The notes beneath the pieces were generated by a model. It was not told the origin of the DNA and searched no databases. It saw nothing but the letters and a program-made list of their open reading frames with translations. Positions 1,529 through 38,604 of a DNA stretch of 64,000 bases are shown piece by piece. The position numbers and the translations under genes were made by a program. The stretch is from assembly GCF_000275865.1 (NCBI RefSeq), contig NZ_CM001555.1:310001-374000 (forward strand), in the 5' to 3' direction. Position 1 is the first letter of the stretch; each line of letters starts with the position of its first letter. The stretch is from Methanofollis liminatans DSM 4140. Its GTDB lineage: Archaea; Halobacteriota; Methanomicrobia; Methanomicrobiales; Methanofollaceae.

Positions 1529-1560
1529 GTAAACGATTGCGTCAGAAGTCTATTATAAAA
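1529..1560 (+). promoter_or_regulatory. shared 22-bp promoter box plus TATA, copy 1
   Basis: Positions 1529-1550 begin GTAAACGATTGCGTCAGAAG. All 22 bp recur exactly at 36022-36043, and 19 bp recur at 38572-38590. A TATA-like TATTATAAAA follows immediately at 1551-1560. Transcription would start near 1580-1585 and drive the ABC transporter ATPase at 1608. Flanking bases differ from the other two copies, so this is not part of the large duplication there. The position just upstream of BRE/TATA fits an activator site. Confidence 0.7.
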
Positions 1561-1607
1561 TGTGACCAATACCTGACTGTCTGTCCAATCAGAGGAATGT
1601 AAATCCC

Positions 1608-2516
1608 ATGATACGATGTGAACACCTTACCAAGGTCTATAACGGGGTGGCGGCGGTCGACGACCTCAACCTGGCGATCCCGGCCGGCGAGATTTTCGGG
1701 CTCCTCGGCCCGAACGGCGCCGGCAAGAGTACCACGATCCTGATGCTGATCGGGCTCATCGAACCGACATCAGGGGCGTGCTTTATCGACGGCATCGAGG
1801 TGGCGAAAAACCCGATCGAGGTGAAACACCGGATCGGCTACATGCCCGAGGACGTCGGGTTCTACGCCACCCTCACGGCCGAAGAGAACCTCGACTACTC
1901 GGCGAAACTCTACGGCATGGACGCCGCCGTGCGGCGGAAGCGGATCCCCGACCTCCTCTCCCTCGTCGGCCTCGACGGGGTCGAGAAGGTCGTCGGCGGC
2001 TACTCGAAGGGGATGCGCCAGCGCCTCGGGCTTGCGAAGGCCCTGATCAACGAGCCGAAGGTGATCATCCTGGACGAACCGACGGCAAACCTCGACCCGC
2101 AGGGCGTCGCCGATTACCGCCGGATCCTCGGGGAGACGGCGGAAAACGGGACGACGGTGCTCGTTTCCTCCCACATCCTCTCCGAGGTGAACCGGGTCTG
2201 CACCTCGGCCGCCATCCTCGCCCACGGGAAATATGTCGCCGGCGGCACCTGGGACGACCTCGCCCGCACCCGGGAGAAGGGAGAGTGCGTCATCCGCCTC
2301 GAGACGAGGTCTCCGATGCCCGAGATCGTCCACCCGGCCCTCCTCTCGGCCGAGTATGCCGACGGCCATAGGTCGGCGCGCCTCGTCGCCGGCGCCGACA
2401 TCAGGGACGAGATCGCCGCCGTCGCCGGTCCCGCCGGGATCAGGCGGCTGGAGGTAGAAGCCCCCGACCTCGAGGACGTCTTTCTCTCGTACTACCACGA
2501 GGAGGCGGCCTCATGA
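1608..2516 (+). CDS. ABC-2 type transporter, ATP-binding protein
   Basis: A 302-residue ABC ATPase with Walker A GPNGAGKS (residues 34-41), a signature region YSKGMRQRLGLAKAL and Walker B IILDEPTANLDP. The C-terminal extension after about residue 215 is typical of CcmA/NatA-type drug or polymer exporters. It energises the permease encoded directly downstream, whose ATG overlaps its stop. A GAGG sequence at 1592-1595 is a weak ribosome site; the shared promoter box lies at 1529-1550. The operon ends in a NEW3-domain surface protein, so the complex probably exports or remodels an envelope component. The substrate is unknown. Confidence 0.93.
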   Translation: MIRCEHLTKVYNGVAAVDDLNLAIPAGEIFGLLGPNGAGKSTTILMLIGLIEPTSGACFIDGIEVAKNPIEVKHRIGYMPEDVGFYATLTAEENLDYSAKLYGMDAAVRRKRIPDLLSLVGLDGVEKVVGGYSKGMRQRLGLAKALINEPKVIILDEPTANLDPQGVADYRRILGETAENGTTVLVSSHILSEVNRVCTSAAILAHGKYVAGGTWDDLARTREKGECVIRLETRSPMPEIVHPALLSAEYADGHRSARLVAGADIRDEIAAVAGPAGIRRLEVEAPDLEDVFLSYYHEEAAS

Positions 2517-3640
2517 GGTCGGCCGGGCTCAGGGTGATCGCCGCCAAGGAGTTCAACGACCACCTGCGGAGCAGGAAGTTCCACCTGATCTTCGGGATAT
2601 TCCTGGTGATCGCCGTCATCGGGCTCATCGGCGGCATGGTCACCTACCAGGAGCAGCTGGAGGACTACAACCGGGCGCAGTCGGCGGTCCAGGACACCGA
2701 CGAGTTCATGGAGAAATCGTATTACTCCTGGAAACCCTCGATGCTCTCGGCCTTCAACGAGATGTCCTCGTTGATGACGACGATCGGCGTGATCCTGGGC
2801 ATCGCCATGGGCTTTGACCTCGTTACGCGGGAGAAGGAGAGCAAATCCCTGAAGATCCTCCTCTCGCACCCGGTCTACCGGGACGAGGTGATCAACGGGA
2901 AGGCGCTCGGCGGTATCGCGGCGATCGCCCTCGCGATGGGGGTCGTGCTCGTCATCTCCCTTGCGGTGATGCTCCTCTTCGGGATCGTCCCGAATTTCGA
3001 GGAAACGGTGCGGATGTTCCTCTTCGGCGCCCTCTCGTTCCTGCTCGTCTTCTCGTTCTTCGCGATCGCCCTGTTCATGTCGACGGTCGCAAAGGACAGC
3101 GGGAGCGCGATCATCTACACGCTCATCGTGATGATCGTCCTCTCCTCCCTCCTCCCGATCTTCACCTACGGCTCGGTGTACACCGCAGCCTTCGGCCAGC
3201 CCCCTGACCCCCCGGAATCCACCATGGTGAGGTACGGCGGCTACGGCGGGACGTACGTCTCGTCGGCCGTCTCCGTCTCGGTCAGCGGCGAGGAGAAGGT
3301 GGACCCCATGGTCGACGAGGCCTGGCAGAAGTACGAGGAGGAATCCCGGGCCTACTGGGAGCGGCGGCAGGCAGTCAGCGACGCCGTATCTCTCCTCTCG
3401 CCGACGAGCAACTACCAGATGCTCGCCTATGCCGTGACCAACCCCGACATGGCGAGGATGATGCTCTCCAGCTCCCTTTTCTCGGTCGTGGAGATGGACG
3501 ACGAGATCCCGCAGGAAGGGTTCTCTGCCCTCTTCGCCCTCCTTGGCGAGATGGCGAAGAACATCGCCGCCCTCGTCATCACGCCCGCCCTCTTCTTCGG
3601 GCTTGCATGGGTGCGGTTCATGCGGGAGGACGTGCGATGA
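2513..3640 (+). CDS. ABC-2 type transporter permease
   Basis: A 375-residue membrane protein of the ABC-2/NatB class. It has an N-terminal membrane segment (about 24-44), a soluble loop, a cluster of four or five helices between residues about 80 and 220, a long extracytoplasmic stretch containing GGYGG, and a last helix near 345-365. The motif FDLVTREKESKSLKILLSHP is the usual cytoplasmic coupling region of this family. Its ATG overlaps the stop of the ATPase gene by 4 bp and its own stop overlaps the next start, so all three genes are translationally coupled. Confidence 0.92.
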   Translation: MRSAGLRVIAAKEFNDHLRSRKFHLIFGIFLVIAVIGLIGGMVTYQEQLEDYNRAQSAVQDTDEFMEKSYYSWKPSMLSAFNEMSSLMTTIGVILGIAMGFDLVTREKESKSLKILLSHPVYRDEVINGKALGGIAAIALAMGVVLVISLAVMLLFGIVPNFEETVRMFLFGALSFLLVFSFFAIALFMSTVAKDSGSAIIYTLIVMIVLSSLLPIFTYGSVYTAAFGQPPDPPESTMVRYGGYGGTYVSSAVSVSVSGEEKVDPMVDEAWQKYEEESRAYWERRQAVSDAVSLLSPTSNYQMLAYAVTNPDMARMMLSSSLFSVVEMDDEIPQEGFSALFALLGEMAKNIAALVITPALFFGLAWVRFMREDVR

Positions 3641-5067
3641 CGAAGGCGCCCGCCCTCCTCCTCGCCCTCCTGGTGCTCACCGCCGCCCTGCCCCTGCCGG
3701 CGGCGGCCGCCGCCTCGGCAACCGGCTCGGTCTCGATCCACTGCGATTTCCCCGGCCAGGTGGTCGAGGCCGGAGAGACGGCGACCTTCACCCTCGTCGC
3801 GGCGAACGACGGGAGCGCCGACCAGATCAAGATGTGGGCGGAGAACTTCGCCGGGAGCCGGGACTGGGAGATGCGGTTTGTCGACGGCACGACCGAGGTG
3901 AACCGGGTCTCCATCCCGAAGGGCGGGTCGAAGACCGTCACCCTTGAGGTCGAGACGGCGGCCGACACCCCGATCGGCGATTATCCCCTGAAGATGCATG
4001 TCGGCGACGGTGCGATCTGGCTTTACGTGACGATCTCGAAGACGCACACCGGCGAACTCGGCACCCTCCAGGTCCTGGTGACCGACAAGGACGGCGAGAA
4101 GGTGAAGGGGGCGACCGTCGATATCTACCGCGGGAGCGAGAGCGAGCCCTTCGACCGGGTGATGACGACCGCCGACGGCCGGATCAGCACCGGCCTCCCG
4201 CAGGACGTCTACCACCTCGTCATCACGAAGCCGGGCTACCGCTCTGCCGAGAAGAAGGACGTGAAGGTGAAGTGCGGGATCACCACCGACGCCGGCACGG
4301 TGATGCTCGAGAAGTCCTCGTACGCCGCCGAGGTGACGGTGAAGTCGGCCCTGATCACGACGCCTGCCGGGAAGAACCCGACCTTCGAGCTGACCCTGCG
4401 CAACGTCGGCAAGGCCGACGACACCTACCGGCTCTCGACTGCGGGGCTCCCTGAGGGCTGGTACGCCCGGTACAAGGAGGGCGCCGCCGAGACGAGCGAC
4501 ATCTCGGAGATCTTCGTCCCTGCCGGCGGCGAGCGGAGCCTCTTCCTTGAGGCGATCCCGCCGTACGGCGTGACGGTCGGGGACTACTTCCTCACGGCCA
4601 CAATCGAGTCGTCCTCGGACGCCTATACCGAGGATATGACGGCGAAGATCAGCGGGAGCTATGAGATGGGGCTCTCTGCGGACCGCTACCGCTACGAGGC
4701 GTCGATGGGCGAGACCGTCGAGTTCGATGTCTCGGTGAGGAACCTCGGCAATGCCGGCGCCCTGACCGGGATCAGGTTCGAGGTGAGCGCACCGCAGGGC
4801 TGGAAGGCCACGGTGACGCCGACGAATATTACGAGCCTCCAGCCAGGCGAGTCGAAGAAGGTGAGCGTGAAGGTGGTGCCGCCGTCGAGCATCGTCGCCT
4901 CCGAGTACAAGGTCACGCTGAAGGCGGTCTCCGACCAGGGCGAAGAGAGCGACGAGTTCAGGATCGTCGTGAAGGAGCAGTCGTTCGCGGCGATCGCCGG
5001 GCTTCTCCTCCTGGGTGCGATCGCCGGCGGGGTCTGGTACTACTTCAGGAAGTACCAGCGCCGGTGA
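3637..5067 (+). CDS. exported NEW3-domain (COG1470-like) protein, C-terminally anchored
   Basis: A 476-residue protein with a cleavable-looking signal peptide (residues 1-24), then repeated beta-sandwich modules: a NEW3-like domain (about 30-135), a carboxypeptidase-regulatory-like domain (about 145-235, with GATVDIYRG and VYHLVITKPGYRS), two further NEW3-like domains (about 240-350 and 355-450), and a terminal membrane helix with a basic tail (FRKYQRR). The start is the ATG overlapping the permease stop. Proteins of this type commonly follow ABC-2 genes in methanogens and sit outside the membrane facing the transporter. Its last 23 bp overlap the convergent PAS gene. Confidence 0.88.
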   Translation: MTKAPALLLALLVLTAALPLPAAAAASATGSVSIHCDFPGQVVEAGETATFTLVAANDGSADQIKMWAENFAGSRDWEMRFVDGTTEVNRVSIPKGGSKTVTLEVETAADTPIGDYPLKMHVGDGAIWLYVTISKTHTGELGTLQVLVTDKDGEKVKGATVDIYRGSESEPFDRVMTTADGRISTGLPQDVYHLVITKPGYRSAEKKDVKVKCGITTDAGTVMLEKSSYAAEVTVKSALITTPAGKNPTFELTLRNVGKADDTYRLSTAGLPEGWYARYKEGAAETSDISEIFVPAGGERSLFLEAIPPYGVTVGDYFLTATIESSSDAYTEDMTAKISGSYEMGLSADRYRYEASMGETVEFDVSVRNLGNAGALTGIRFEVSAPQGWKATVTPTNITSLQPGESKKVSVKVVPPSSIVASEYKVTLKAVSDQGEESDEFRIVVKEQSFAAIAGLLLLGAIAGGVWYYFRKYQRR

Positions 5068-6670
5068 GAGCGTCGTCGGGCGCTTCGCCCTCCCCCGGCT
5101 CCCCGGCCGGGACCGGGGCGAGCTGCTCGACGACCAGGCACACCTCCCCGTCCCGGTCGATGATCGGGACGCTCGTGCATCGCAGGTGCTGGTCCAGTTC
5201 GGGGACGTATTTCTCGATCGTCTCTGGTTTTCTGCTTTTGAGGGCCATCTCGGTGGCGCAGGCCTCGCAGGGGCGGGCCCTGCCGATGAGGGAGTAGCAG
5301 GGTTTTCCCGCCACCTCCTCCGGCGTCATCCCGAGGGCCTCGTAGCCGGCCCGGTTGTAGCGGATGACCCGGCGGTCGGGGCGCATGATCCCGACGATCT
5401 CGGGGAGGGCGTCGATCGTCCATTCGAGGAGGGCATTCGCCTCGTGCAGCGTCCGTTCTCCGGCGCGGATCTCGGTGATGTCGCGGAGCGACTCGATAGC
5501 GCCGACGGTCTCCCCGTCCGGCCCCCGCAGGGGCGTCGCCCGCCCCTGGAGCACACGCTCCTCGCCGTCGCCGGTGATGACGGTGATCTCCCCGGTGAGG
5601 CTCCCGTCCTCCCACCTGGCGGCGGTGTGGCGGCTTCTGGTCTCCCCTGACGCCCGCCCGAGGACGATCTCGGCGAGCACCGGGCGGACCTGGCCCCTGA
5701 TCTGGGGGTCGCAGTCAGACCGCCCGATCACGCCGGCGGCCGCCACCCCGGTCAGCCGCTCCATCTGGCGGTTCCAGAGCGTCACCCGCCCCTCCCTATC
5801 GATCGCGAAGGTCGGGTCGGGGAGCGACTCGATCACGCCTTTGAGGCGCTGTTCTGATGCGAGGATCGCTGCTTCCGCATTTTTATAGTCGGTGATGTCC
5901 CTGCCGACCGACTGGATCCTGATCAGGTTCCCCGCGGGGTCGAATGAGGCGCGGTCGGTCCAGCCGTGCCAGCGCACCTCGCCCGAGGGCATGACGACCT
6001 GGTGGTCGATGTGGGCGGCCGGATGGTCGGGGGTGAGGGAGGCGAAGTGGCGGCGGAGACGCCCCTGCTCGTGGACCGGAATTTTTGGGGTGAAGCGGCG
6101 CCCCACCATCTCCTTCCCCGGCACCCCGAAGTGCCTGCAGAATGCCTCGTTTGCAAACAGGATCACGCCTTCTGGATCGAACCAGCAGATCATCTCGGTC
6201 TGGTCCTCGACGACGGTGCGATACCGCTCCTCGCTCTCCTCCAGGGCCCGGGCGATCCGTCTCTTCTCGACCGCCTGGATGATGCTGTTTTCCAGTTCGG
6301 CAAATTGCGGCTTCGGCGCCCCGCCCTTCTGGAGGTAATAGTCCACCCCGGCGTTCAGCGCCTCGATCACCGCCTCCTCGCGCCCTTTTCCGGTGAAGAT
6401 GATGAAAGGGAGGGGGCCGTAGCGTCTCCTTACCTCCCGCAGGAGTTCGATCCCGTCCATGCCCGGCATCTGCAGGTCAGAGACCACACCGTCGATGGCC
6501 CCGCCGGCCAGCAGCGGGAGCGCCTCCTCTGCGGAGGTGGCCGGGGTCACGGCGATCTTTCCTCCCCGTTCAAGGAATAATTTTCCAATTTCGACGAGTG
6601 CGGGTTCGTCGTCAATATAAAGAACAGATATTTTTTGTTTATTGGAATAATGGGGCTCCGGGAAATCCAT
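5045..6670 (-). CDS. response-regulator receiver with three PAS domains, no kinase domain
   Basis: A 541-residue cytoplasmic protein. Residues about 14-118 form a REC domain with the acidic pair D20-D21, phospho-acceptor D65 (in VVSDLQMPG), T93 and K115. Three PAS domains follow (about 145-262, 270-395 and 405-520); the third contains a Cys cluster (PCYSLIGRARPCEAC) that could bind a cofactor or metal. No DHp or HATPase_c region is present, so it cannot autophosphorylate by the usual route and must receive phosphate and pass the signal by protein contact. It is monocistronic; its 3' end overlaps the NEW3 gene. Confidence 0.9.
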   Translation of the reverse strand: MDFPEPHYSNKQKISVLYIDDEPALVEIGKLFLERGGKIAVTPATSAEEALPLLAGGAIDGVVSDLQMPGMDGIELLREVRRRYGPLPFIIFTGKGREEAVIEALNAGVDYYLQKGGAPKPQFAELENSIIQAVEKRRIARALEESEERYRTVVEDQTEMICWFDPEGVILFANEAFCRHFGVPGKEMVGRRFTPKIPVHEQGRLRRHFASLTPDHPAAHIDHQVVMPSGEVRWHGWTDRASFDPAGNLIRIQSVGRDITDYKNAEAAILASEQRLKGVIESLPDPTFAIDREGRVTLWNRQMERLTGVAAAGVIGRSDCDPQIRGQVRPVLAEIVLGRASGETRSRHTAARWEDGSLTGEITVITGDGEERVLQGRATPLRGPDGETVGAIESLRDITEIRAGERTLHEANALLEWTIDALPEIVGIMRPDRRVIRYNRAGYEALGMTPEEVAGKPCYSLIGRARPCEACATEMALKSRKPETIEKYVPELDQHLRCTSVPIIDRDGEVCLVVEQLAPVPAGEPGEGEAPDDALTGAGTS

Positions 6671-6778
6671 TGTGGTTCATAATGCGGCCATACTATATTT
6701 GTATATCGATATTTCACATAGTTTAAAATACGGCCGATTTGATGTTTTTCGCGAATCTGCGGGGCCGGCCGGTGCGTT

Positions 6779-7999
6779 TCACTCCTGGTCGCCCCCTCCT
6801 CCGGGAGCGGGGAGGCACCGCTCCACCTCCCGCGCCACCTCGCGGAGGGTGATCCCGCGTTCGCGGGCGATCTGCCGCATGTCCTCGTACTCGGGCTTGA
6901 CGGCGATCACCCGCCCGCAGGCCCGCGAGGTCTTCACCCGCACGGGAAAGGTGCGTCCCCCGACAACGACCTCCACCGTCTCCCGCCGCCGGTCGGCGAC
7001 CAGCCGCGGCTCCTCGCGCACCCGCACCCCGAGGGTGCCGGTCTCCTCCATCAGGACGGTCAGGAGGCGTGCATAGCGCTCCCGGTCGGTGATCACCGAG
7101 ATGACCTGGACCGGGCGGTTCTTCTTCCCGATCGCCGGGGTGACGAAGACATCGATCGCCCCCTCCTCGAGGAGGCGGCCGAGGGCGTGGGCGACCACTT
7201 CGCCGCTGATATCGTCCAGGTTCGTCTCCAGCAGGACGATCCGCTCCTCGACGAGGTCGCTCGTCTCGCACTCCACGACCCTGAGGATGTTGGCGCCGGC
7301 GCCGTTCGGGCGGGTCCCGGCCCCGTAGCCGGTGCGGATGGGCGTCATCGCCGGGAAACGGTCGGCCACGACGGCGAGGTTCGCCAGGAGGGCGGCGCCG
7401 GTCGGCGTCGTCAGCTCCATCGAGAGGGAACTTTCGGCGACCGGGATCCGGTGCGCCGCACAGATCTCCAGGGCCGCAGGCGCCGGGCCGCCGACCGTCC
7501 CGCCGCCGGTCGGGATCAGCCCGCCCCCGAGGGCCGGCGGGGTGGCGTGGACCTGACACCCGGCAAGCCCGGCCTCCTCGATCAGGAGGAGGGGGGCGAG
7601 GATGTCGAAGATCGTGTCGGCCGAGGCGACGGCGTGCCGCGAAAAACCCGTGGGGTGGAGGCGCCGCTCGGCGGCGAGAAGATCGCCGAGGACCCTCTCC
7701 GCCCGCTCCCGCCCCCATGCGGAGAGCCCGACCGAAGCGGCCACCTGGGCCAGGGCGGCGGCGAGGTCCCCGTCCGATCCCGCGGGCTTCTCGCGCACCT
7801 TAAAGGCGAGCCGCCTGGCCCTGACACCGCCGTCGGCCTCCTCCAGCCTCACCGAGAACTCCGCACACCCGGGAAGGGCGGCGATCGCTGCGCCAAGCCG
7901 TTCGAGGGGCTCGGCCGATCCCGTCAGGTCGGCCAGGGCGGCGGCGAGCATGTCCCCGGATATCCCGCCGGTGCGAGGATCGATGAGCAGTGCCCTCAT
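6779..7999 (-). CDS. larC: LarC-family protein (nickel-pincer cofactor biosynthesis / nickel insertion)
   Basis: A 406-residue protein with the family N-terminus GGISGDMLAAALADL and the later blocks TPTGAALLANL, ETNLDDISGEVVAHALGRL and EYEDMRQIARERG. LarC is the CTP-dependent nickel insertase that completes the nickel-pincer cofactor of lactate racemase-type enzymes. In lactobacilli it is made by ribosomal frameshifting; here the frame is continuous. Its ATG overlaps the stop of the 617-residue gene upstream by 4 bp, so the two are translationally coupled. No larA, larB or larE is seen in the window, so the cofactor client is unclear. Confidence 0.88.
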   Translation of the reverse strand: MRALLIDPRTGGISGDMLAAALADLTGSAEPLERLGAAIAALPGCAEFSVRLEEADGGVRARRLAFKVREKPAGSDGDLAAALAQVAASVGLSAWGRERAERVLGDLLAAERRLHPTGFSRHAVASADTIFDILAPLLLIEEAGLAGCQVHATPPALGGGLIPTGGGTVGGPAPAALEICAAHRIPVAESSLSMELTTPTGAALLANLAVVADRFPAMTPIRTGYGAGTRPNGAGANILRVVECETSDLVEERIVLLETNLDDISGEVVAHALGRLLEEGAIDVFVTPAIGKKNRPVQVISVITDRERYARLLTVLMEETGTLGVRVREEPRLVADRRRETVEVVVGGRTFPVRVKTSRACGRVIAVKPEYEDMRQIARERGITLREVAREVERCLPAPGGGGDQE

Positions 8000-30738: not shown

Positions 30739-31024
30739 AGGCCGTCTCGCCCGCGATCCGCTCCCTCATCCTCGGTTTGATGGCGTCGGGCGTCACCAGG
30801 TCGACCGGGGCGCCGAGCCGATCCGAGAGGTAGTCTTCCAGCTCCATGAAGGTGAAAAAGCCGACCGGCCGGGAGAACTCGACCAGGATATCGATGTCGC
30901 TTGCGGGCGTCTGCTCGCCGCGGGAGACCGAGCCGAAGACGCCGATCCTGGCGACGTGGAAGCGGACTTCGAGGTCGTCTTTAAGGGTGGCGAGGAGGGC
31001 GAGGACGCTCTCACGGGAGTGCAT
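30731..31024 (-). CDS. MntA-type minimal nucleotidyltransferase antitoxin
   Basis: A 97-residue nucleotidyltransferase with GSVSRGE (residues 31-37) and SDIDIL (catalytic D43 and D45), the full MNT active site. It is expected to AMPylate the adjacent HepT. A TTTATCC TATA-like element about 27 bp upstream predicts a leaderless message. A decayed paralogue lies at 32657-32930, where GS has become GP and the frame is broken. This copy looks intact. Confidence 0.92.
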
Positions 31025-31068
31025 GGGGGGATCATCTGTTGGGGGGAGGATAAAGGTTGTGGATGGCG

Positions 31069-31092
31069 GGAGAGGACGGGAATCTCAGGCAT
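31069..31092 (-). pseudogene. hicA remnant: first eight codons only
   Basis: The sequence encodes MPEIPVLS, matching the start of the intact HicA (MPEVPVLS) at 33210. It then jumps straight into the mntA promoter. Comparing the distance from hicB stop to mntA start in the two copies gives a net 212-bp deletion here. Confidence 0.75.
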
Positions 31093-31205
31093 ATGCTTCG
31101 ACCGGCAGCGTATATTCGAGGATGTCCTCCTCGGTCGGGATCTTTTCGCCCCTGTCGGTCAGGTCTTCCAGGTACACCTCGATCGCCTCCTTTGCCATTG
31201 CGATC
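31085..31205 (-). pseudogene. hicB remnant: C-terminal fragment
   Basis: About 40 codons (AMAKEAIEVYLEDL, TDRGEKIPTEED, LEYTLPVEAYA) match the C-terminal half of the HicB antitoxin at 33203-33437. Homology stops abruptly at 31205 next to an AT-rich TTAAAAAT, so the N-terminal domain is gone. The ATGCCTGA overlap with the hicA start is preserved as in the right copy. Confidence 0.8.
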
Positions 31206-31207
31206 TT

Positions 31208-31263
31208 AAAAATAGATGTCACGGTTGTTATTCCGCCCCGGATCCAGACACTGTCCGGGGCGG
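31208..31263 (-). terminator. stem-loop terminator of the Cache lipoprotein gene
   Basis: A perfect 10-bp inverted repeat (CCGCCCCGGA at 31233-31242, TCCGGGGCGG at 31254-31263, 11-bp loop) lies about 20 bp beyond the stop at 31283 and is followed on the minus strand by a T5 tract (31208-31212). Confidence 0.7.
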
Positions 31264-31282
31264 ATGCCGGTGGGAAAAATAG

Positions 31283-31822
31283 TTACTGCATTGGAGACTG
31301 GTCTGCCGGGCCGGTGTATATTCCGGAACCAAGCCACCAGTCATCATCGATACTCACACCATACACCAGTTTTGATTCGAGCGTCCGGTTGTGCGTGGGA
31401 TTGACATACTTTATCCGGTAAAAACCGCTTCCATTCCTGACGGCATCGATGGTGCCCCGGAGATAGATCCCTGTGTCTCCCTCATCCAGACGGTTTACTC
31501 CGACCTTCTCAGGATTGACCGGGTGGGCGAGGGTTGTGCCGTTGAAGTCGTAGGCGTAGATATAGAGTTCGCCCCTGATAAAAGAACCATTCGGGTTGTT
31601 AAATTCTGCAAGGGATTTTTCTTTGCCGTTTGTTTTCACATAGGCGGCCGCACTCTCAACGAAGGCGACGAGCGTTTCATTGGAGGTGTAGGTCTCCTGC
31701 TGAATCTCAGTACTTCCCGACGTTGAAGTGGCGACGTCGGGCTGATTCTGTGTGCACCCGGCTGTTACAAGAAACAGGCCGAGAACCAGCAGAATCAGGA
31801 ATGAAACTGACGGTTTTTGCAT
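31283..31822 (-). CDS. lipoprotein with a single Cache-like sensor domain
   Basis: A 179-residue protein with lipobox VTAGC (Cys23) and a Cache-type small-ligand domain: a long helix TLVAFVESAAAYVKTNGKEKSLAEFNN, then GELYIYAYDFNGTTLAHPVNP and a C-terminal GSGFYRIKYVNP and KLVYGVSIDDDWWLGSGIY. This matches single-Cache domains seen fused to kinases and chemoreceptors; here it is free. The ATG at 31822 follows a TTTATCGG TATA-like element by about 25 bp. The gene ends at a strong stem-loop. It separates the two decaying toxin-antitoxin copies. Confidence 0.85.
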   Translation of the reverse strand: MQKPSVSFLILLVLGLFLVTAGCTQNQPDVATSTSGSTEIQQETYTSNETLVAFVESAAAYVKTNGKEKSLAEFNNPNGSFIRGELYIYAYDFNGTTLAHPVNPEKVGVNRLDEGDTGIYLRGTIDAVRNGSGFYRIKYVNPTHNRTLESKLVYGVSIDDDWWLGSGIYTGPADQSPMQ

Positions 31823-31977
31823 GATATTAATGCGATTTTCCAGCCGATAAAGATTCTGTATCAACAGATGCCTTTAATGGGGTTTTTATCGAGATTTCTG
31901 CTCTATATGTGGACATTGTGCGCAATATCGGCTATTTTTGGGTCATCAAAGGGTTCTCAACGGTCTCGCATCGAATG

Positions 31978-32165
31978 CCGTCCTGGCGGTCAGGTTCGTC
32001 GAACTCTTCCTGGACCGCGAGATCGTGCTCGCCTTCGACCGGATGCGGGGGAAGCGGCATATCGGGGCCTGCGATATGGCGGGGACAGTCTCGGAGGAGG
32101 AAGCGAACAATGCGGTTTCGCGCGCGGAGGCATTCCTTGATGCCATAGAGGGGCTTCTCCGCTGA
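31978..32165 (+). pseudogene. HEPN-domain protein remnant
   Basis: An open stretch ends at 32165 and encodes a segment containing RFVELFLDREIVLAFDRMRGKRHIG and GTVSEEEANNAVSRAEAFL. That resembles the C-terminal half of HEPN proteins: the RxxRH-type motif followed by the helix with VSEEEA. No N-terminal half or start is visible upstream and no nucleotidyltransferase is adjacent, so it is probably a relic. Confidence 0.5.
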
Positions 32166-32231
32166 GAGTGTTCTGGCTCACGTGCCATGAAGGTTTAATG
32201 CGCCGACCGGCCGGCACCTCTTCGCCGGGGA

Positions 32232-32369
32232 TCAGATCCTGAAAAGAGTTGCAAGTTTTGCGTTGACCTCTGCCCTGAGGTCATCGTCGAGTTCGCCGAG
32301 TTCGCCTACCATCAGGTCTTTCAGGACGGTTGCGATCTTGTCCAGCCTGATCACGGAATCGACCTTCAT
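32232..32369 (-). CDS. 45-residue ORF coupled to the 63-residue ORF
   Basis: The frame starts MKVDSVIRLDKIATVLKDL and ends ATLFRI. It looks helical, with a regular acidic centre (GELGELDDDLRAEVNAKL). Its ATG overlaps the stop of the preceding small ORF as ATGA, a coupling typical of genuine gene pairs. Family unknown; small-protein partner or antitoxin are possible. Confidence 0.6.
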   Translation of the reverse strand: MKVDSVIRLDKIATVLKDLMVGELGELDDDLRAEVNAKLATLFRI

Positions 32370-32557
32370 CGGTACACGACCTTCAGGTCCCTGACGGCGT
32401 AGAGGTCTGGCTCCTCCTCAAGAAACGCGGAGAGCGACCGCTCGGAGAGTTTCATCATGGCTGCCGTCTCCCTCTCGTGGAGGAGTTCGTCGATCTTTTC
32501 GGTGAGCATCCTGATGCTCTCCTTGATCTCCCTGACGTCCGCTTCGATGCCGGTCAT
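32366..32557 (-). CDS. 63-residue coiled-coil-like ORF
   Basis: The frame starts MTGIEADVREIKESIRML and has a heptad-like helix (about residues 4-30, ADVREIKESIRMLTEKIDEL) followed by MMKLSERSLSAFLEEEPDLY and a basic end. I do not recognise a family. The coiled coil plus a C-terminal binding segment resembles the organisation of small antitoxins. It overlaps the 45-residue ORF by 4 bp and follows the decayed mntA copy. Confidence 0.6.
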   Translation of the reverse strand: MTGIEADVREIKESIRMLTEKIDELLHERETAAMMKLSERSLSAFLEEEPDLYAVRDLKVVYR

Positions 32558-32656
32558 GGTGGGGCCTCCCGTTATGCAGATGATCGGTGGGACGGGCTAT
32601 CAAACTTTGCGTTCGGGATCGGATGGTCTGTATGAGGTGTGGCGGACGGTTTCGGG

Positions 32657-32930
32657 CATCGGCTGTTTCGCCCGTGATCCTCTCCCGCATCGCCGGTTTG
32701 ATGGCGTCGGGCGTCGCCGGGTCGTTCGGAGAGGTATTCTTCCAGCTCCATGAAGGTGAAATGTGCCGACCGGCCGGGAGAACGCAGGCCGGGATGTCGA
32801 TGTCGCGTGCGGGCGTCTGCTCGCCGCGGGAGACCGGGCCGAAGACGCCGATCCTGGCGACGGGGAAGCGGACCGCAAGGTCGTCTTTGAGGGTGGCGAG
32901 GAGGGCGAGGACGCTCTCACGGGAGTGCAT
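32657..32930 (-). pseudogene. decayed mntA paralogue (right copy), with hepT start remnant
   Basis: It starts like the intact mntA ([18 protein letters not shown]) but GSVSRGE is GPVSRGE and SDIDIL is RDIDIP. A frame change then scrambles the middle, and the segment equivalent to LGAPVDLV is missing, before PDAIKPAMRERITGETA restores the original frame. A few codons resembling the hepT start (MPETV) overlap the end, but the rest of hepT is absent. Catalytic activity is not expected. Confidence 0.8.
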
Positions 32931-32985
32931 GGGGGATCATCTGTTGGGGGGAGGATAATGGTTGTGGATGGCGGGAGAGAACGGA

Positions 32986-33210
32986 TCATTTCAGATCTTC
33001 GAGTTCTTCCCTTTCAATTCCGGCCTGTCTGAGGATTTCAAGAAGAGTCCCTGCAGGCAGATCTGGTGCATGAACCGGGACAGTCACGCGTCTTCCCGTT
33101 TCCGGATGACGATAGAGGTGGTGACTGCCCCGTGTTCGTGCAAGGACGAATCCTTTTGTTTCAAGGATTTTGATGACTTTTTGCGGAGAGAGGACGGGAA
33201 CCTCAGGCAT
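32986..33210 (-). CDS. hicA: HicA-type mRNA interferase toxin
   Basis: A 74-residue double-stranded RNA-binding-like toxin with QKVIKILETKGFVLARTRGSHH, where the catalytic His is in GSHH (residue 30), and the C-terminal VPVHAPDLPAGTLLEILRQAG. All features of an active HicA are present. Its ATG overlaps the stop of hicB, the cognate antitoxin gene, but that hicB has a frameshift. A second, almost fully deleted copy lies at 31069-31092. Confidence 0.92.
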   Translation of the reverse strand: MPEVPVLSPQKVIKILETKGFVLARTRGSHHLYRHPETGRRVTVPVHAPDLPAGTLLEILRQAGIEREELEDLK

Positions 33211-33437
33211 ATGCTTCGACCGTCAGGGTATATTCGAGGTTATCCTCCTCGGTCGGGATCTTTTCGCCCCTGTCGGTCAGGTCTTCCAGGTACACCTCGA
33301 TCGCCTCCTTTGCCATTGCGATCGCCTCCTCGATCGTGCCGCCGAAGGTGACGCAGCCCGGGAAGGGTTGGTTCTATAACTGTATGCCTGCCTTTCGCCT
33401 CTTTCCGGAGGAGGATACGGTGCTGCAGAGGTTTCAT
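33203..33437 (-). pseudogene. hicB: hicB antitoxin gene with a frameshift
   Basis: The first part reads MKPLQHRILLRKEAKGRH and continues to PTLPG, as in HicB; the second part, in another frame, reads CVTFGGTIEEAIAMAKEAIEVYL and continues to TVEAYA. The two halves join at LPG/CVT, so one extra base near 33353-33361 breaks the gene. The C-terminal half is well preserved, which suggests a recent break, a read error or recoding. It overlaps the intact hicA start. Confidence 0.8.
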
Positions 33438-33494
33438 CGCGTCCCTTTTAAGAGTACAACTACCCGCTGACGCATAAGAAACACCGCCCGAATC

Positions 33495-33505
33495 CTTTAT
33501 CTCCC
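33495..33505 (+). promoter_or_regulatory. TATA box of the winged-helix/YwgA-like/MazF operon
   Basis: ATCCTTTATCTCC lies about 40 bp before the ATG at 33542 in the 104-bp space divergent from hicB. Confidence 0.5.
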
Positions 33506-33541
33506 CCTGCTCCAACATCTACTCAAAGTTTAAAGTCGCTT

Positions 33542-33883
33542 ATGTCGGATGATCTGATAGCAATCGTGGAAGAATCCGAGGACGTGAACAGCACCCTCAT
33601 CTCCCGGGTGCGCCTGGAGATACTCTGGGCGCTCTCCGAGCTCGGCGAGGACGGGGCCACCGCACGGCAGCTCAAAGCCGGGCTGAACCTGAGCGACGGC
33701 GTGCTCTACGCAAACCTCAAGAAACTTGTCGAGATGGGATACCTCCGCTCCGAGAAGGTGACGCTTGAAGGGAAGGAACTGGAGCTCTGCGCCATCACCC
33801 CGGAAGGGCTCGGCGAGTGGCGGCGTGTCCGGGGCTGGCTCTGCAAACTCCTCGGCTGCGAAGGTGATATCTGTGAACGATAG
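33542..33883 (+). CDS. winged-helix regulator heading a putative toxin-antitoxin operon
   Basis: A 113-residue PadR/MarR-like winged-helix protein. The helix-turn-helix is GATARQLKAGLNLSDGVLYANLKKLVEMGYL and the wing is RSEKVTLEGKELELCAITPEG. The C-terminus WLCKLLGCEGDICE is Cys-containing. It is followed, with an 11-bp overlap, by a YwgA/Panacea-like gene, and 1 bp after that by mazF, so it is likely the autoregulator of the three-gene operon, in place of the DNA-binding domain antitoxins normally carry themselves. Confidence 0.85.
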   Translation: MSDDLIAIVEESEDVNSTLISRVRLEILWALSELGEDGATARQLKAGLNLSDGVLYANLKKLVEMGYLRSEKVTLEGKELELCAITPEGLGEWRRVRGWLCKLLGCEGDICER

Positions 33884-34403
33884 AAGCAAAGTCATTGCCT
33901 GTTTCCGAGAAGCTGGGTTCCGTATGGATAAAGGCCAGTTCGAGCACCGGCTCATCGCCCAGAAGCTTGTTTATCTGCTGAAGCTGAAGGGTGTCGAATT
34001 TGCGTATCCGTTTCATCTCTACGTCCGGGGACCCTACTCCCCGGACCTTGCACGGGAGTACTACCAGCACGCCGACGAGTTTTCCCGGTGCGAGACGGAG
34101 CGCGCGCTCTCCCCCGTCGAAGCGGACTCTGTTGCCGGGCTCACCGGCCTCTTCGGCAAAAGCCCGTCCCTGCTTGAGATCGGGGCGACTTACGGGTATC
34201 TGGCCTACGAGATGCACCAACCGCCGCAGCAGGCATACCGGGCAGTCCGGAGGATGAAGTCCTTCTACTCCAATGAGCAGATCGTCAAGGGTATCAACCG
34301 GGTGAAGCAGTACCTCTTTGCCCCCACTGACGAAGAGAAGGCGGTGCTTGACTCCGAGCTGCAGGAGTGGCAACGAGCCGGTATCCAGTCGATGAGGCAT
34401 TAG
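33873..34403 (+). CDS. YwgA/Panacea (DUF4065)-like protein, candidate antitoxin for MazF
   Basis: A 176-residue protein with a GTG start at 33873 supported by AGGTGA five bases upstream. The block EHRLIAQKLVYLLKLKG, then FHLYVRGPYSPDLAREYYQHADEF, matches the YwgA and DUF4065 (Panacea/SocA) pattern of a Q-K-L-x-Y-L helix followed by a YGPYS-type loop. Panacea domains are known as interchangeable antitoxins for many toxin types. It is sandwiched between a winged-helix gene and mazF, with overlap and a 1-bp gap. The family assignment is by eye and needs a profile search; the antitoxin role is inference. Confidence 0.65.
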   Translation: MNDRSKVIACFREAGFRMDKGQFEHRLIAQKLVYLLKLKGVEFAYPFHLYVRGPYSPDLAREYYQHADEFSRCETERALSPVEADSVAGLTGLFGKSPSLLEIGATYGYLAYEMHQPPQQAYRAVRRMKSFYSNEQIVKGINRVKQYLFAPTDEEKAVLDSELQEWQRAGIQSMRH

Positions 34404-34404
34404 G

Positions 34405-34740
34405 ATGCGCCGGAGCAGAGGCGATATCTGGTTCGTCGATCTTACCGACGCACGGGGGCACGAGCAGAGCGGGCTGCGTCCTGCCGTGGTGCTCGCCGTC
34501 GCCTACGGGGGTATGACCATCGCGGTCCCGCTGACGACGACCCCGGTGGCTTTTTCGTTCCCGCACACCCACGGTATCGAGAAGAGTTCACAGAACGGGC
34601 TGATTTCCAATAGTGCGGCGCTGGTCTTCCAGATTGTTGCCCTCTCGGAAGATCGTTTCGTCCGGAAGATCGGGCGGTGCTCGGTCGAGGATATGGAAGC
34701 AATAAGCGTTCTTTTGAAAGACCTGTTGGCGCTGGAATAG
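34405..34740 (+). CDS. MazF/PemK-type mRNA interferase toxin
   Basis: A 111-residue protein with the MazF N-terminus RGDIWFVDL, the core GHEQSGLRPAVVLAVAYGG and the following MTIAVPLTTTP, including the conserved Arg (R25) and the Thr-rich strand of the RNase site. The C-terminus RFVRKIGRCSVEDMEAISVLLKDLL is also typical. No MazE-type antitoxin is adjacent; instead it lies 1 bp after the YwgA/Panacea-like gene, which is the natural candidate to neutralise it. Confidence 0.9.
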   Translation: MRRSRGDIWFVDLTDARGHEQSGLRPAVVLAVAYGGMTIAVPLTTTPVAFSFPHTHGIEKSSQNGLISNSAALVFQIVALSEDRFVRKIGRCSVEDMEAISVLLKDLLALE

Positions 34741-35117
34741 CGGTCTTTTCCGGCGAAAGAGAGATGTCGGTACAATCCCATCCACCTTCCCGCGACATCA
34801 TGCCGCGTGGCGATTCCCCGGATACTATTCAAACGATAATTTCCGCGATTTTATTCAAACCGGGACCGTAACCTGGGGAACGCCTTGCCATGGTGCTGTA
34901 TATACGGGAAAAAGCACAGAACCAAACGAGCAATTTCTATGCCTCCTACTGATCGTTCTGGGCATGCAGTTTTTCGCGTTCGTTATTCTGTTTTTAATGA
35001 TGGAAAGCCTATAAATTATTCAAGGGGGGATTCTAAAAAGCCGATCGTCATTTTAATGGGGTATGGTGCACGGAGTATAGTATCCATGAACCCCCTATAA
35101 ATCATACTGAGATTGCA
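34741..35117. other. start of AT-rich island, no convincing gene
   Basis: From about 34815 the base composition drops visibly below the surroundings and the G+C third-position bias of the neighbouring genes disappears. A short open frame (34939-35100, starting MPPTDRSGHAVFRVRYSVF) ends at a stop, and the next frame continues with an unrelated-looking sequence, so this may be a broken foreign gene. I cannot identify it. Confidence 0.5.
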
Positions 35118-35396
35118 ATGCGAAATATTTCTCGTGTTTTGTATTATACCAAGGATGATCCTGAGAGATGGTACAAAGTCAACTGGATAATTGTCAGTAC
35201 GTCTCATGCAGTTTACAAAACACATGGGGGGCGTGGGCATAAAGTAAGGCAGAAAATTCGCCATCAGTTATGGAGCAAAGCACAAAGAAAATACCCCGTT
35301 CTCAACAGATACTCGATTCCATATGAAATCTCTGGCGACAGTAAGTGCAAAATAAAGTGGTATTATCGGATCCTGGATTTCTTCTCTTTTTTATAG
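35118..35396 (+). CDS. 92-residue basic ORF in AT-rich island, possibly a gene fragment
   Basis: The frame starts MRNISRVLYYTKDDPERWYKV and is rich in Lys, Arg, Trp and Tyr. Its AT-rich codons differ sharply from the surrounding genes. The frame is open a little further upstream (EPPINHTEIA before the Met), which hints that it is the 3' part of a longer gene broken near 35090. No family is recognised. Confidence 0.35.
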   Translation: MRNISRVLYYTKDDPERWYKVNWIIVSTSHAVYKTHGGRGHKVRQKIRHQLWSKAQRKYPVLNRYSIPYEISGDSKCKIKWYYRILDFFSFL

Positions 35397-35562
35397 AATG
35401 GTGAAAGATCATTTGAGTATCAAACTGAATATTACATTAAATGTCGAAAAATGCTGAAGGGGATTAACTCCACTTTCTGCAGTAAAAGGGTTTGTGTCCA
35501 AAATAGTGCTCGTTATATGGTTCTTTGACCCTATTTTCTGAAGATTGAGCCCCCTCAAAAAA
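35397..35562. other. end of AT-rich island
   Basis: AT-rich sequence with no supported gene. It ends sharply at the sepS fragment starting at 35563, where GC-rich codon usage resumes. Confidence 0.4.
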
Positions 35563-35897
35563 TTATTCGAGGATCTCTCCCCGCACCGTCAAAAACACCG
35601 GCCCCCGCACATCCACCTTCCTCTTATTATCCGTAATATACCGCATCGCCCATTCCGGTATCCTCAGATTCACGTCAGAAGGCGTCTTCGCCATCTTCAC
35701 CTGCACGACCACGCCCTCGCCGCAGCGGGCCGCCTCCTCGATCCTGGCCGCGGCGAGATTCGCCGCCGCCGTCAGGTACGAGATCCCGGTCGGGGCGCCG
35801 TTCGCCCGGACGTCCGCGAACTTCTCGGTGTCCGGGACGCCGAGCACCTTGCCCTCCTGCACGAAGACCTCGTTGAAGGTCGCGGGGCCGCAGAGGC
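35563..35897 (-). pseudogene. orphan sepS 3' fragment 1 (SepRS C-terminal domain)
   Basis: These 335 bp encode the last 110 or so residues of SepRS ([19 protein letters not shown] through [13 protein letters not shown]), nearly identical to 39419-39753. Homology to sepS stops at 35897; beyond it the sequence is the spacer shared with 38448-38570. The reading frame is still open, but there is no catalytic domain and no start. It came from a tandem duplication whose breakpoint lies inside sepS. Confidence 0.88.
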
Positions 35898-36021
35898 AAT
35901 CGAAGCGCTGGACACTTTCGGCACCGTTCTTTTTTTTAGTGGGCATGAGGGGTCCCGATCCGTGACATACGCCACTGTAGGGTCTCATCCCCTTCCCGGT
36001 CCGGCGAGATCGACGCGACAG
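35898..36021. repeat. duplicated spacer, copy 1
   Basis: This spacer between the sepS fragment and the promoter box is closely repeated at 38448-38571 (shared blocks include ATCGAAGCGCTGGACACTTT and CCGGCGAGATCGACGCGACA). It is upstream promoter DNA of the lipoprotein gene carried along in the duplication. Confidence 0.75.
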
Positions 36022-36053
36022 GTAAACGATTGCGTCAGAAGTCGTATATATTA
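36022..36053 (+). promoter_or_regulatory. shared 22-bp promoter box plus TATA, copy 2
   Basis: Positions 36022-36043 are identical to 1529-1550 over 22 bp. TATATATTA follows at about 36045-36053. In the duplicated unit this promoter originally served the lipoprotein gene; now an inserted AT-rich gene (ATG 36222) lies behind it. Confidence 0.7.
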
Positions 36054-36221
36054 AAACAGCCATATTTGGTGATGTGGAGATCAAACTGGTCTCCCGGCGG
36101 GGGTCCGCCGTGTTTTCGAGACGCTGACGGTGCCCCGCACTGCCCGGAGGCATGACAATGTACTCTTTTCTAATACTTAAGGGTGTGTTTCGTTCCTCCG
36201 AGAAAGACTGGAGGTAAACGA

Positions 36222-37280
36222 ATGAAAACAAAACTTTATACTGGGATTCCTCTGTTTCTGGTTATCCTACTGGTCTGTACTGTGGTCCCTCCTGGCGCAG
36301 CTGAGAATCAAACGTTGGCTCCTATAAACATGAGTCAACCTTATGTCTATGAGATTCGCGATCTGAGCAACCCAATTACTGAATCTGAAATTATAGATTT
36401 GCGGAGCAACCTTATTTCAAAGCAAAACCATTTATTCCGTTCAACCGAAGGGGATGGCCCAACTCTTGCCTATGCAAATCCGAGGATCTTAGATAATGGA
36501 ACAATCGTGGCTTATGGGTTTTATATTGATCCTGAAGGTACGACTCACCAATTGATCGGTGTTGTCAATGACGAAAGTTGTATTGACGACATGTATGAGA
36601 TAGCCAATCAATGGCTTGAAAATATGAGTAACGAACAGAATCTTCTATCGTCCTCAGATGTTCAGGATGGTTGGGATTGCTTCTCACAGGATGACCTCTA
36701 TTATGAAGCCGAGCCGTATGGGTTAGTTGAGAACAACTATGAACTGTATCGCAATATCGAAGAAGATGATCCAGATCAGGACTGTTATGCAGTTAAACAA
36801 TTTTTTTCAATGGAACCTGGATTTCATAGGTGGAGAGAAGATAACTGGAGTAAATGGATTAGTGAATCGGGTTTTTGTTGGAACGACTGGTCATATGCCC
36901 CCAACTCCCTTAGTTCCTCGTTACATAACCGCCAACCTTTCGGAACCTATGTGGGACCAACAACCCTTCAGTTATCTCTTTATCCGGAACCATGTATGTC
37001 TTGGTCGCTAATCCTTGATTCTGTCTCCATTGAGGATAACAGCGATCCGGTTACTCAAACAGCACGATGGGATATGTCATTTAACTCTGCCGAAGCGCAA
37101 AAAACAATACAGGGGTGGAGAGTAGGGAGTTCTATATTAGCAGACGTTCCTAACGTTGCCGGGGAGTATCATCTGACACGTCTATATGTTGATGGAAAAT
37201 TTGTTGATCCCACTTCACCATGGTATGATCGCCAGTATCGGGATCTCAGAACCGCTTGGGATTTCTGGGTTGATTATTAA
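36222..37280 (+). CDS. exported protein of unknown function in an AT-rich insertion
   Basis: A 352-residue protein with a signal peptide ([20 protein letters not shown] to about residue 26, ending PPGAAE) and an acidic, Trp/Tyr-rich ectodomain ([49 protein letters not shown]) with five Cys residues. A strong GGAGGT lies 6 bases before the ATG. I recognise no family. Codon usage is clearly AT-richer than in flanking genes. It sits between promoter-box copy 2 and lipoprotein copy 1, where the other repeat unit has nothing, so it is a net insertion of about 1244 bp. Confidence 0.85.
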
Positions 37281-37345
37281 ATGATTACTCAATCATTTCT
37301 AATCTTTATTTTGATTCCCATTGAGCAAAAGTATGGGTGACAACC

Positions 37346-38065
37346 ATGCACACATCATATTTCATACCCGGACTCTTTCTTCTTCTCATCTGCACCGCAG
37401 GCTGCAGCGGACTTACGGACCGGACCTTCACCCTCCCTGCCGAAACATCGGGTCCGCCGCTCACCGCCCTCTGGGAGGGGGCCGTGGAGGCGACCGGCAT
37501 CGACGAAGAGAGCGGTCTGGTGAGCGAATTCACCCTGCTCAGGGGAGGGGACGGCCATATCGTCCTGATGGACCTCTCTTTCTCCGGTGACGTGAACGGA
37601 GAGCGACGACACTTCAATGCCTACCGCCGGCAGAGCGGCACCGTGACGGTCAGACCGATCGCAGAACGTTCTCCCGCGGGCCTCCGCCATCCCGGCCGGG
37701 TCTTTAAGGATCTCGAAGCCCTCGGTTCGAACACCTCGTTCTGGGAGAACGACTGGAGCATTCACCTGAAAAATATCCGGGGCGCGACCTACAGGAGTGA
37801 ATCCTTCCCGGTGTATCTCCTGGAGAACGGAACCCTCGTCTCTCTCGATTGGGTCTCGACCGCGGGTGCGCCGTCGCAGGTCTATTACTTCTCCTTCTGC
37901 AAGACCGGGGTCTTCGACGGGTCCGCAGCGAGTGAGCAGGGAGGCGGTGCCACGGCATTCGTCGGCCGGGGCGAGTGTTCCGTCATCTTCACGCCGGAAG
38001 AACTGGAAAAAACGTCGTACCAAAAAATGGATGGGGGAGAGGACGATCTCGTGTCCCCCTCATAA
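37346..38065 (+). CDS. duplicated lipoprotein, copy 1
   Basis: A 239-residue lipoprotein: hydrophobic N-terminus and lipobox CTAGC with candidate lipidated Cys20, then a beta-rich domain (TLLRGGDGHIVLMDLSFSG, NDWSIHLKNIRGATYRSES, PSQVYYFSFCKTG). It differs from copy 2 at 28 of 239 positions by my count, most of them in the N-terminal 60%; the 3' end is almost identical. A GTG three codons upstream is an alternative start. Its original promoter was displaced by the insertion at about 36065-37336, so it may now depend on read-through. Family unknown. Confidence 0.85.
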   Translation: MHTSYFIPGLFLLLICTAGCSGLTDRTFTLPAETSGPPLTALWEGAVEATGIDEESGLVSEFTLLRGGDGHIVLMDLSFSGDVNGERRHFNAYRRQSGTVTVRPIAERSPAGLRHPGRVFKDLEALGSNTSFWENDWSIHLKNIRGATYRSESFPVYLLENGTLVSLDWVSTAGAPSQVYYFSFCKTGVFDGSAASEQGGGATAFVGRGECSVIFTPEELEKTSYQKMDGGEDDLVSPS

Positions 38066-38112
38066 AACAGCGGCGAGGTGTCGGGCCCGGCACGAGAGGG
38101 TCGCCGGCCCGT

Positions 38113-38447
38113 TCACTCCCCGATCTCCGCCCGCACCGTCAAAAACACCGGCCCCCGCACATCCACCTTCCGCTTATTATCCGTAATATACCGCATCGCC
38201 CATTCCGGTATCCTCAGATTCACGTCAGAAGGCGTCTTCGCCATCTTCACCTGCACGACCGCCGCCTCCCCGCACCGGGCCGCCTCCTCGATCCTGGCCG
38301 CGGCCAGGTTCGCCGCCGCCGTCAGGTAGGAGATCCCGGTCGGGGCGCCGTTCGCCCGGACGTCCGCGAACTTCTCGGTGTCGGGGACGCCGAGCACCTT
38401 GCCGTCCTGCACGAAGAGCTTGTTAGAGGTGGCGGGACCGGAGAGAC
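38113..38447 (-). pseudogene. orphan sepS 3' fragment 2 (SepRS C-terminal domain)
   Basis: A second 335-bp copy of the sepS 3' end with exactly the same boundaries as fragment 1. It has drifted more at its upstream edge ([16 protein letters not shown] against [16 protein letters not shown]). The frame remains open but lacks the catalytic core. It is the junction half of the 1306-bp tandem duplication. Confidence 0.88.
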
Positions 38448-38571
38448 AATCGAAGCGCTGGACACTTTCGACACCGTTCTTTTTTGTAGCGGGCACGAGG
38501 GGTGCCGATCCGTGACATGCGCCACTGTAGGGTCTCATCCTCTTCCTGGCCCGGCGAGATCGACGCGACAG
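38448..38571. repeat. duplicated spacer, copy 2
   Basis: Copy of 35898-36021, lying between sepS fragment 2 and promoter box copy 3. Confidence 0.75.
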
Positions 38572-38604
38572 GTAAACGATTGCGTCAGAAACGGTATATA
38601 TTGA
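38572..38604 (+). promoter_or_regulatory. shared promoter box plus TATA, copy 3
   Basis: Nineteen bp of the box (GTAAACGATTGCGTCAGAA, 38572-38590) are preserved, followed by TATATATTGA at about 38595-38604. The lipoprotein ATG is 48 bp beyond the TATA, giving a leader of about 25 nt. Confidence 0.7.

Follow-up and report, generated by a model that had tools for sequence, protein, structure and literature searches.

Membrane-anchored one-component regulators are already known. The accessible parts of the literature describe the transmembrane transcription regulators (TTRs), in which Methanomicrobia are reported to be rich (PMC10269533), and ArnR of Sulfolobus acidocaldarius, which has a helix-turn-helix (HTH) at its N-terminus, a HAMP and sensor region, and two membrane helices at its C-terminus, and whose boxes are two 15-bp inverted repeats (PMC6396743). 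EarA of Methanococcus and CsmR of Haloferax are winged-helix proteins whose positive action was deduced from their position upstream of the B recognition element (BRE) and TATA box, according to the available excerpt of PMC13286277. Excerpted sources give the EarA site as TACATA (PMC6396743) and the CsmR site as TATCA-N4-TGATA (PMC13286277). Here, we examine a 19-bp promoter box found in a stretch of 64,000 nt of Methanofollis liminatans DSM 4140 (NZ_CM001555.1, positions 310,001-374,000; genome label G000), hereafter referred to as the window. We propose, with a probability of about 0.7, that this box is the site of a sequence-specific regulator of envelope genes, most likely the adjacent membrane-anchored tandem winged-helix protein, and is thus the operator of a one-component surface regulon.

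Positions 1529-1550 and 36022-36043 of the window share exactly 22 bp (GTAAACGATTGCGTCAGAAGTC), and the first 19 bases are present again, also exactly, at 38572-38590, as a sequence-only reading of this DNA had stated. That reading considered identity by chance to be negligible, and indeed a 20-mer of the box with up to 3 mismatches matched three times in the window and 0 times in 100 dinucleotide-preserving shuffles. It took all 22 bp as the box; of these, the 19 bp stand as the conserved, functional unit while the last three shared bases (GTC) are spacer. The TATA box that it saw behind each copy starts 3-4 nt past the 19-mer: TATTATAAA at 1551-1559, at an offset kept in orthologues, for copy 1 (1529-1547, plus strand, 30.3 bits), TATATATT at 36045-36052 for copy 2 (36022-36040, plus strand, 30.1 bits), and TATATATT at 38595-38602 for copy 3 (38572-38590, plus strand, 29.1 bits). 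The three promoters do have the box in common, but a fourth copy was missed. It occupies 1477-1495 of the minus strand (GTAAACAGATGTGCCAGAT, then TTTAA at 1474-1470; 21.9 bits), back to back with copy 1, and is kept in the orthologues L042-L046. The opposite-strand second box was first noticed in the orthologous ATP-binding cassette (ABC) loci of the genus, which were matched at E<=1e-60 in 10 of 12 Methanofollis genomes. Copy 4 is the putative promoter element of a divergent operon headed by an exported protein (1443 to 676, minus strand), which shows a weak PPC-domain similarity below the Pfam cut-off.

The box is rare in the genome. The 19-mer with up to 3 mismatches occurs at three places in the single contig of 2,475,100 bp, and a looser consensus with 3 further mismatches yields 3 forward and 2 reverse matches; the backwards control gives 0 in both cases. 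We then used R1, a sequence-only covariance model built from 20 Methanofollis sites, with the reversed model as control. Over the 2.475-Mb genome (E<=10), R1 returned the four window copies alone among the best 150 of 206 first-look candidates, and on the window with filters off the next match beyond the four copies has an E-value of 4.5. Copies 2 and 3 sit in duplicated DNA, as had been noted (35572-36067 versus 38122-38617 at 92.7% identity, and 37337-38445 versus 38643-39751 at 94.0%), and because this duplication is real they are not independent of each other. Copy 1 is independent, since it is kept at the orthologous ABC promoter of other species and its flanks are not. An attachment (att) site or mobile-element end, i.e. 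two 22-bp direct repeats 34 kb apart, was also considered and was rejected because the boxes are kept at orthologous promoters; a tRNA is likewise absent from the window, as is any Rfam match at the gathering threshold.

All four copies lie ahead of genes with predicted envelope functions. Copy 1 leads into an operon of an ABC-type ATPase (1608-2516, PF00005), an ABC-2 permease (2513-3640, PF12679) and an exported NEW3-domain protein (3637-5067, PF10633). Copy 2 is followed by an exported protein without Pfam or NCBIfam match (36222-37280) and, as second gene, by a duplicate lipoprotein gene (37346-38065), and copy 3 by a lipoprotein (38652-39371) whose 82%-identical orthologue in G009 is also boxed, with another core; all these genes are on the plus strand. 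More widely, the box holds a fixed position relative to the core promoter, as a regulon box should. The bare 19-mer, which presupposes no TATA box, matched 10 times in the 12 genus genomes, with a clear TATA box at the same offset in 8 cases, a weaker A/T element in L006, and one match in coding DNA (L004). A box-only matrix was applied to the examined loci, which were mostly chosen through R1 and hence through a model that includes the TATA box; among its 92 distinct matches, the best TATA-like 8-mer lies at offset 0-6 in 91, positions 5-10 past the box have an A/T content of 0.87-1.0, and two of the matches lie inside a called gene. The abundance of coding copies unrelated to a TATA box that, according to the sequence-only reading, would mark a dispersed repeat was thus not seen. 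Of 125 boxes scoring >=22 bits, 91 have a same-strand called gene within 350 bp. A hydrophobic N-terminus, called by a crude rule and with identical first genes counted once, is present in 59 of 86 distinct first genes behind boxes versus 234 of 517 other genes of the same loci (Fisher p 6.5e-5), and a manual count identifies 21 of the other 27 first genes as ATPase heads of ABC operons, three of them truncated. First genes behind boxes are mostly exported proteins or heads of ABC-2/NEW3 operons.

In orthologous promoters, the box is conserved above the flanking DNA. When the ABC promoters of eight Methanofollis species were compared, anchored on the box and ungapped, mean pairwise identity was 0.85 in the 19 box columns versus 0.29 at 6-60 bp upstream, with 0.53 in the next 13 columns (TATA) and 0.66 in the 5 bases ahead of the box. 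The contrast between box and upstream flank indicates that the box is under selection and is not a duplication relic. Across a sample of the order, R1, whose training sites come from Methanofollis only, matched at E<=0.05 in at least 57 of 150 genomes (at least 49 of the 108 good ones); the reversed model gave at least 7 matches in 7 of 150 (best E 0.00476). The R1 matches number at least 247, at least 205 of them in 46 genomes outside Methanofollis. For both models the best 45 first-look candidates per genome were scored, and all these counts are lower bounds. An order-wide consensus search at 3 mismatches had been set aside: it matches 140 of 150 genomes, but the backwards control matches many too, so that its output is mostly noise, and the covariance model with its reversed control replaced it. 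Taken at the level of sequence, the box is conserved across an order of methane-making archaea. The genome and order scan that the sequence-only reading had suggested as a check thus finds promoter-bound matches, and its proposal of an operator of a cell-surface regulon gains support from copies that are few, promoter-bound and ahead of envelope genes; activation itself would be a further step, weighed below. In group f4, probably Methanoculleus, clusters of boxes stand ahead of many small exported proteins, some of which, by eye, carry the motif of the window lipoprotein (LWEGVVEATGIDE in the window, MWAIVQDRTGVEN in f4). Methanoregula loci resemble group f5.

What the sequence-only reading had observed of the box holds, but the divergent fourth copy, the order-wide spread and an adjacent membrane regulator were all absent from it. 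This regulator, a little-studied, predicted membrane-anchored tandem winged-helix protein of 240 residues and our candidate for the box-binding protein, is encoded on the minus strand 16 nt behind the exported protein gene, from position 659 past the left end of the window (1-659 within it). Two stretches of it are hydrophobic, one at the N-terminus and another at about positions 43-66 of the alignment, and its DNA-binding domains PF24266 (HTH_HVO_0163_N), PF13412 and PF12840 score above their cut-offs, with two winged-helix domains in all. An AlphaFold2 model of residues 1-219 shows helices at 2-14 and 45-75 and two winged-helix folds, for which Foldseek returned ScpB, ArsR-type, SelB and other winged-helix proteins with weak E-values (best 1.1e-4). 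No other member of its family was found in G000.

The arrangement of regulator and boxes recurs. An exported protein and regulator facing away from one box, with a second box facing the ABC operon, is found in G000, G002, G003, G004, G008 and G010, and the same divergent layout recurs in G001, G006 and G007, where the first ATPase is truncated; in G005 the contig stops just past the second box. Outside the genus, the divergent layout is present in the f5 loci L203 and L205 and in the Methanoregula loci L214-L216, which were fetched by protein search and not by the box. Of five Methanoregula loci, four (L213, L214, L215 and L216) have boxes that R1 scores as strong, and in L217 the boxes are no more than weak, whereas reversed R1 has no match in these five at E<=1. 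As a separate observation, L114 and L115 (G006 and G001) contain tandem ABC operons after the hub, each with its own box, the first with a badly truncated ATPase.

We then asked how often box and regulator are neighbours. For this test, all R1 matches at E<=0.00203 were taken from 19 genomes in which all family members were located, G011 being without a match. Within the genus, 17 of 20 matches lie within 10 kb of a family member, with 0.62 expected at random, and outside it 13 of 33, with 1.0 expected; the misses include copies 2 and 3 of G000. Taking the proteins as the starting point instead, we found a box of >=18 bits no more than 1.5 kb upstream of 33 of the 63 regulators outside the training loci (L211 and L212 being left out as duplicates of G010 C12 and G007 C260), against 0 for the reversed matrix and 15 for a downstream region of equal length. 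For the 48 regulators fetched by protein match alone the box count is 24, with 0/48 for the reversed matrix. The downstream matches arise because boxes cluster.

The core of the box varies by regulator paralogue: it reads GTTTTGACCG or GTTTTGAACG for three G064 paralogues, CGATTGGACC in f2 and GAAATTGGAC in f4. When boxes were selected by scaffold only, with the core columns omitted, 46 of 72 regulators had one. Core mismatches increase with regulator divergence (Mantel r -0.28, p 0.0005, 25 representatives at <=60% identity), in a test that omits the 26 of 72 regulators without a scaffold match of >=15 bits, L211, L212, the broken gene of G011 and the partial L177. The case of G009 is instructive in this respect. 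There, a divergent pair of boxes with the variant core GATCTGCTCA lies about 0.5 kb upstream of regulator P0007, and the same core is found at the orthologue of the window lipoprotein and at a second divergent pair (L186), on three contigs in all. The core GATCTGCTCA occurs in none of the other examined loci, which total 1.32 Mb with overlaps counted. On the other side of P0007, at a distance of about 1.4 kb, a common-type box is present as well. In G000, the lipoprotein instead carries the core of box copy 1, which stands at the hub of the only regulator found there.

A natural loss is seen in G011, the closest relative of G000, with aligned stretches 88-96% identical. Missing from G011 is a stretch that begins within the exported protein gene, takes in both hub boxes, the ATPase and the permease, and ends about halfway through the NEW3 gene; a frameshift splits the regulator of this genome; and R1 has no match in it at E<=10. 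In locus L176 of G011, what is left of the exported protein gene and of the NEW3 gene is joined by the loss of the intervening DNA. Such a co-loss fits boxes, operons and regulator forming one functional unit.

How might such a unit work? We infer that the regulator physically binds the box, that its operon is co-transcribed, and that a sensing step is followed by activation. In this mechanism, the short outside segment, perhaps together with the co-encoded exported protein, would sense the envelope, and the cytoplasmic winged helices would bind the box, i.e. a GTARA half and a TTG-N5-CAA-like dyad. The site lies directly upstream of, and probably touches, the BRE/TATA core promoter of cell-envelope genes, and binding there would help to recruit transcription factor B (TFB) and TATA-binding protein (TBP). 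In G000, a single regulator would control four promoters: that of its own operon, which carries the box, that of the ABC-2/NEW3 operon and, at a distance of about 35-37 kb, the duplicated pair ahead of the lipoprotein and exported-protein genes. The box thus looks like an undescribed switch for cell-surface remodelling. In bacteria, ToxR/ToxS and VtrA/VtrC likewise pair a transcription factor anchored in the membrane with an exported or periplasmic protein encoded together with it; the likeness to the regulator and exported protein described here is one of gene layout only, an analogy.

Each of the described systems covers a part of this picture. TTRs join a DNA-binding domain and a transmembrane segment in one polypeptide, as the regulator, with its DNA-binding domains and hydrophobic segments, may do as well, but the methanogen TTRs are given without regulon or DNA site in the accessible part of the report (PMC10269533), whereas a site, targets and paralogue-specific cores are proposed here. 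ArnR and ArnR1, too, are one-component membrane proteins that control genes for surface structures, with defined boxes ahead of the core promoter (PMC6396743), and the regulator would likewise act on surface genes from such a position. Unlike ArnR, its predicted membrane helix is N-terminal and its two winged helices C-terminal, and the regulator has no HAMP match. EarA and CsmR share with it the winged helix and a position upstream of the BRE/TATA of cell-surface genes, but the available excerpt on them mentions no membrane anchor (PMC13286277). A literature search, covering titles and the openings of abstracts, returned nothing that describes this box, regulon or regulator family, nor did it yield an order-wide family of paralogue-specific boxes fused to the core promoter. 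The proposal would provide a site and a target set for a whole regulator family, in a group reported to be rich in TTRs, and with them a route to how archaea sense the envelope and choose surface proteins, and to how a one-protein membrane regulator meets the archaeal core promoter.

The direction of control is less clear than the site. We somewhat favour activation over repression, by analogy, because EarA acts upstream of the BRE and the authors on CsmR deduce positive action from such a position. In the converse case, which overlaps with our preferred explanation as a sub-case, the same regulator at the same site would block TFB at the BRE until an envelope signal arrives. Three features speak for such a block: an apparent overlap between the BRE and the 3' end of the box; the presence of the box in the promoter of the regulator itself, which hints at autoregulation; and winged helices in the regulator that resemble the ArsR fold, the known members of which are mostly repressors. 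Moreover, derepression in a deletion strain is mentioned besides positive action for CsmR in the excerpt available (PMC13286277). Most of the box, however, is upstream of the BRE, where according to the same excerpt archaeal activators such as EarA act (PMC13286277), and we regard the repressor variant as the less likely of the two.

A different question is whether the adjacent protein is the reader at all, and several observations weigh against our proposal. Copies 2 and 3 of G000 sit 35-37 kb away from the regulator. Of the 33 R1 matches outside the genus (12 genomes), 20 lie more than 10 kb from any family member, among them all listed matches of G044, G049, G059 and G095, so that these boxes would have to be bound in trans or by another protein. 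The proximity test is also not fully independent, since the family profile used, A2, was built from members noticed beside boxes, and both it and the Mantel signal partly reflect shared descent. Half of the 48 protein-fetched regulators have no upstream box of >=18 bits, and for 11 of the 48 the downstream control region is boxed. The divergent layout is not seen in G009, where the ABC promoter is boxed but only an apparent remnant of the regulator's last domain adjoins it. The AlphaFold2 model is modest, with a predicted local distance difference test (pLDDT) score of 70 and a predicted template modelling (pTM) score of 0.40 from 8 sequences; 34 of the 125 boxes have no called gene within 350 bp, as judged by a crude gene caller; and G011 is one lineage, in which the copies at 35 kb may never have been present.

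These points leave room for a genuine envelope operator read by another protein, such as a MarR-type factor or a TFB variant, with the adjacent membrane protein only a target or an indirect participant. The matches without a nearby family member in G044, G049, G059 and G095 belong to f4, where a MarR-type gene (PF01047) and a lon gene (PF05362) lie inside box clusters, and the box abuts the BRE. Yet 11 of 12 Methanofollis genomes, G000 among them, lack the f4 MarR gene, with one weak match in G009, the tandem winged-helix gene is the recurring neighbour in f1, f2 and f5, and the cores vary with the regulator paralogue. We therefore consider another reader unlikely overall. Because of its absence from these 11 genomes, the MarR-type protein was rejected as general reader; it may have such a role in f4. 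Box clusters beside MarR-type and lon protease genes were observed in the f4 loci L191, L195, L197, L198, L208, L209 and L210, the assignment resting on Pfam for L195 and on likeness for the others.

Two further explanations deny the box any dedicated regulator or any function. As the box runs into the BRE/TATA region, it could be a part of the ordinary archaeal core promoter; but four profile matches in 2.475 Mb are far below the number for a general promoter element, and 19 bp of specificity extend beyond BRE/TATA, which makes this explanation very improbable. Even less credible is a dispersed repeat, mobile-element end or duplication relic without regulatory role, for although copies 2 and 3 lie within duplicated DNA, the copies are not the many coding and non-coding ones unrelated to promoters that a repeat would show: all four genome matches of R1 are in promoters, the TATA offset is fixed, and the box is kept at orthologous promoters across species despite diverged flanks.

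Beyond the proposed one-component regulon, the variation of cores raises the possibility of an order-wide paralogous operator code, an idea that we hold tentatively, at somewhat less than even odds. Duplicated membrane-anchored regulators with two winged helices would share a common box scaffold fused to BRE/TATA, their changed central cores would assign banks of surface proteins to different outside signals, and in part of the transcripts a conserved leader RNA, with an alternative pairing able to hide the ribosome-binding site, would add a further level of control.

Leaders of about 165-190 nt with a common structured element were observed behind many boxes, i.e. in the window at 36053-36221 (plus strand), where the structure is predicted and the leader RNA is a candidate, and in L110, L111, L112, L113, L118, L121, L189, L199, L200, L201, L206 and L207. 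The element consists of a hairpin, a second hairpin and a conserved GCCCGGAGGCA able to pair with a downstream GCCUCCGGG, which could alternatively pair with the ribosome-binding GGAGG. RNAalifold on a MAFFT alignment of the leaders recovered only the long-range GGAGGC/GCCUCC pairing with almost no covariation, MAFFT having left the second hairpin unaligned, and a test of own versus foreign arms was used in its place. The arms of the second hairpin pair better with their own than with a foreign partner, both in 17 leaders (permutation p 5e-5) and in 13 less redundant ones (p 5e-5), although in 4 of the 17 the mean over foreign partners exceeds the own pairing. The window has no Rfam match at the gathering threshold, and Rfam at a permissive threshold gave only matches below gathering scores in five leader loci (L110, L118, L121, L201 and L207). 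The leader is a candidate for a new RNA element with a possible translation switch.

Finally, the region 35563-41020 contains an O-phosphoseryl-tRNA synthetase gene (39419-41020, minus strand; PF01409 and SepRS_C PF18006) together with two truncated 3' copies of it, at 35572-35897 and about 38122-38445. The tandem duplication behind these synthetase copies also copied the box promoter and the lipoprotein.

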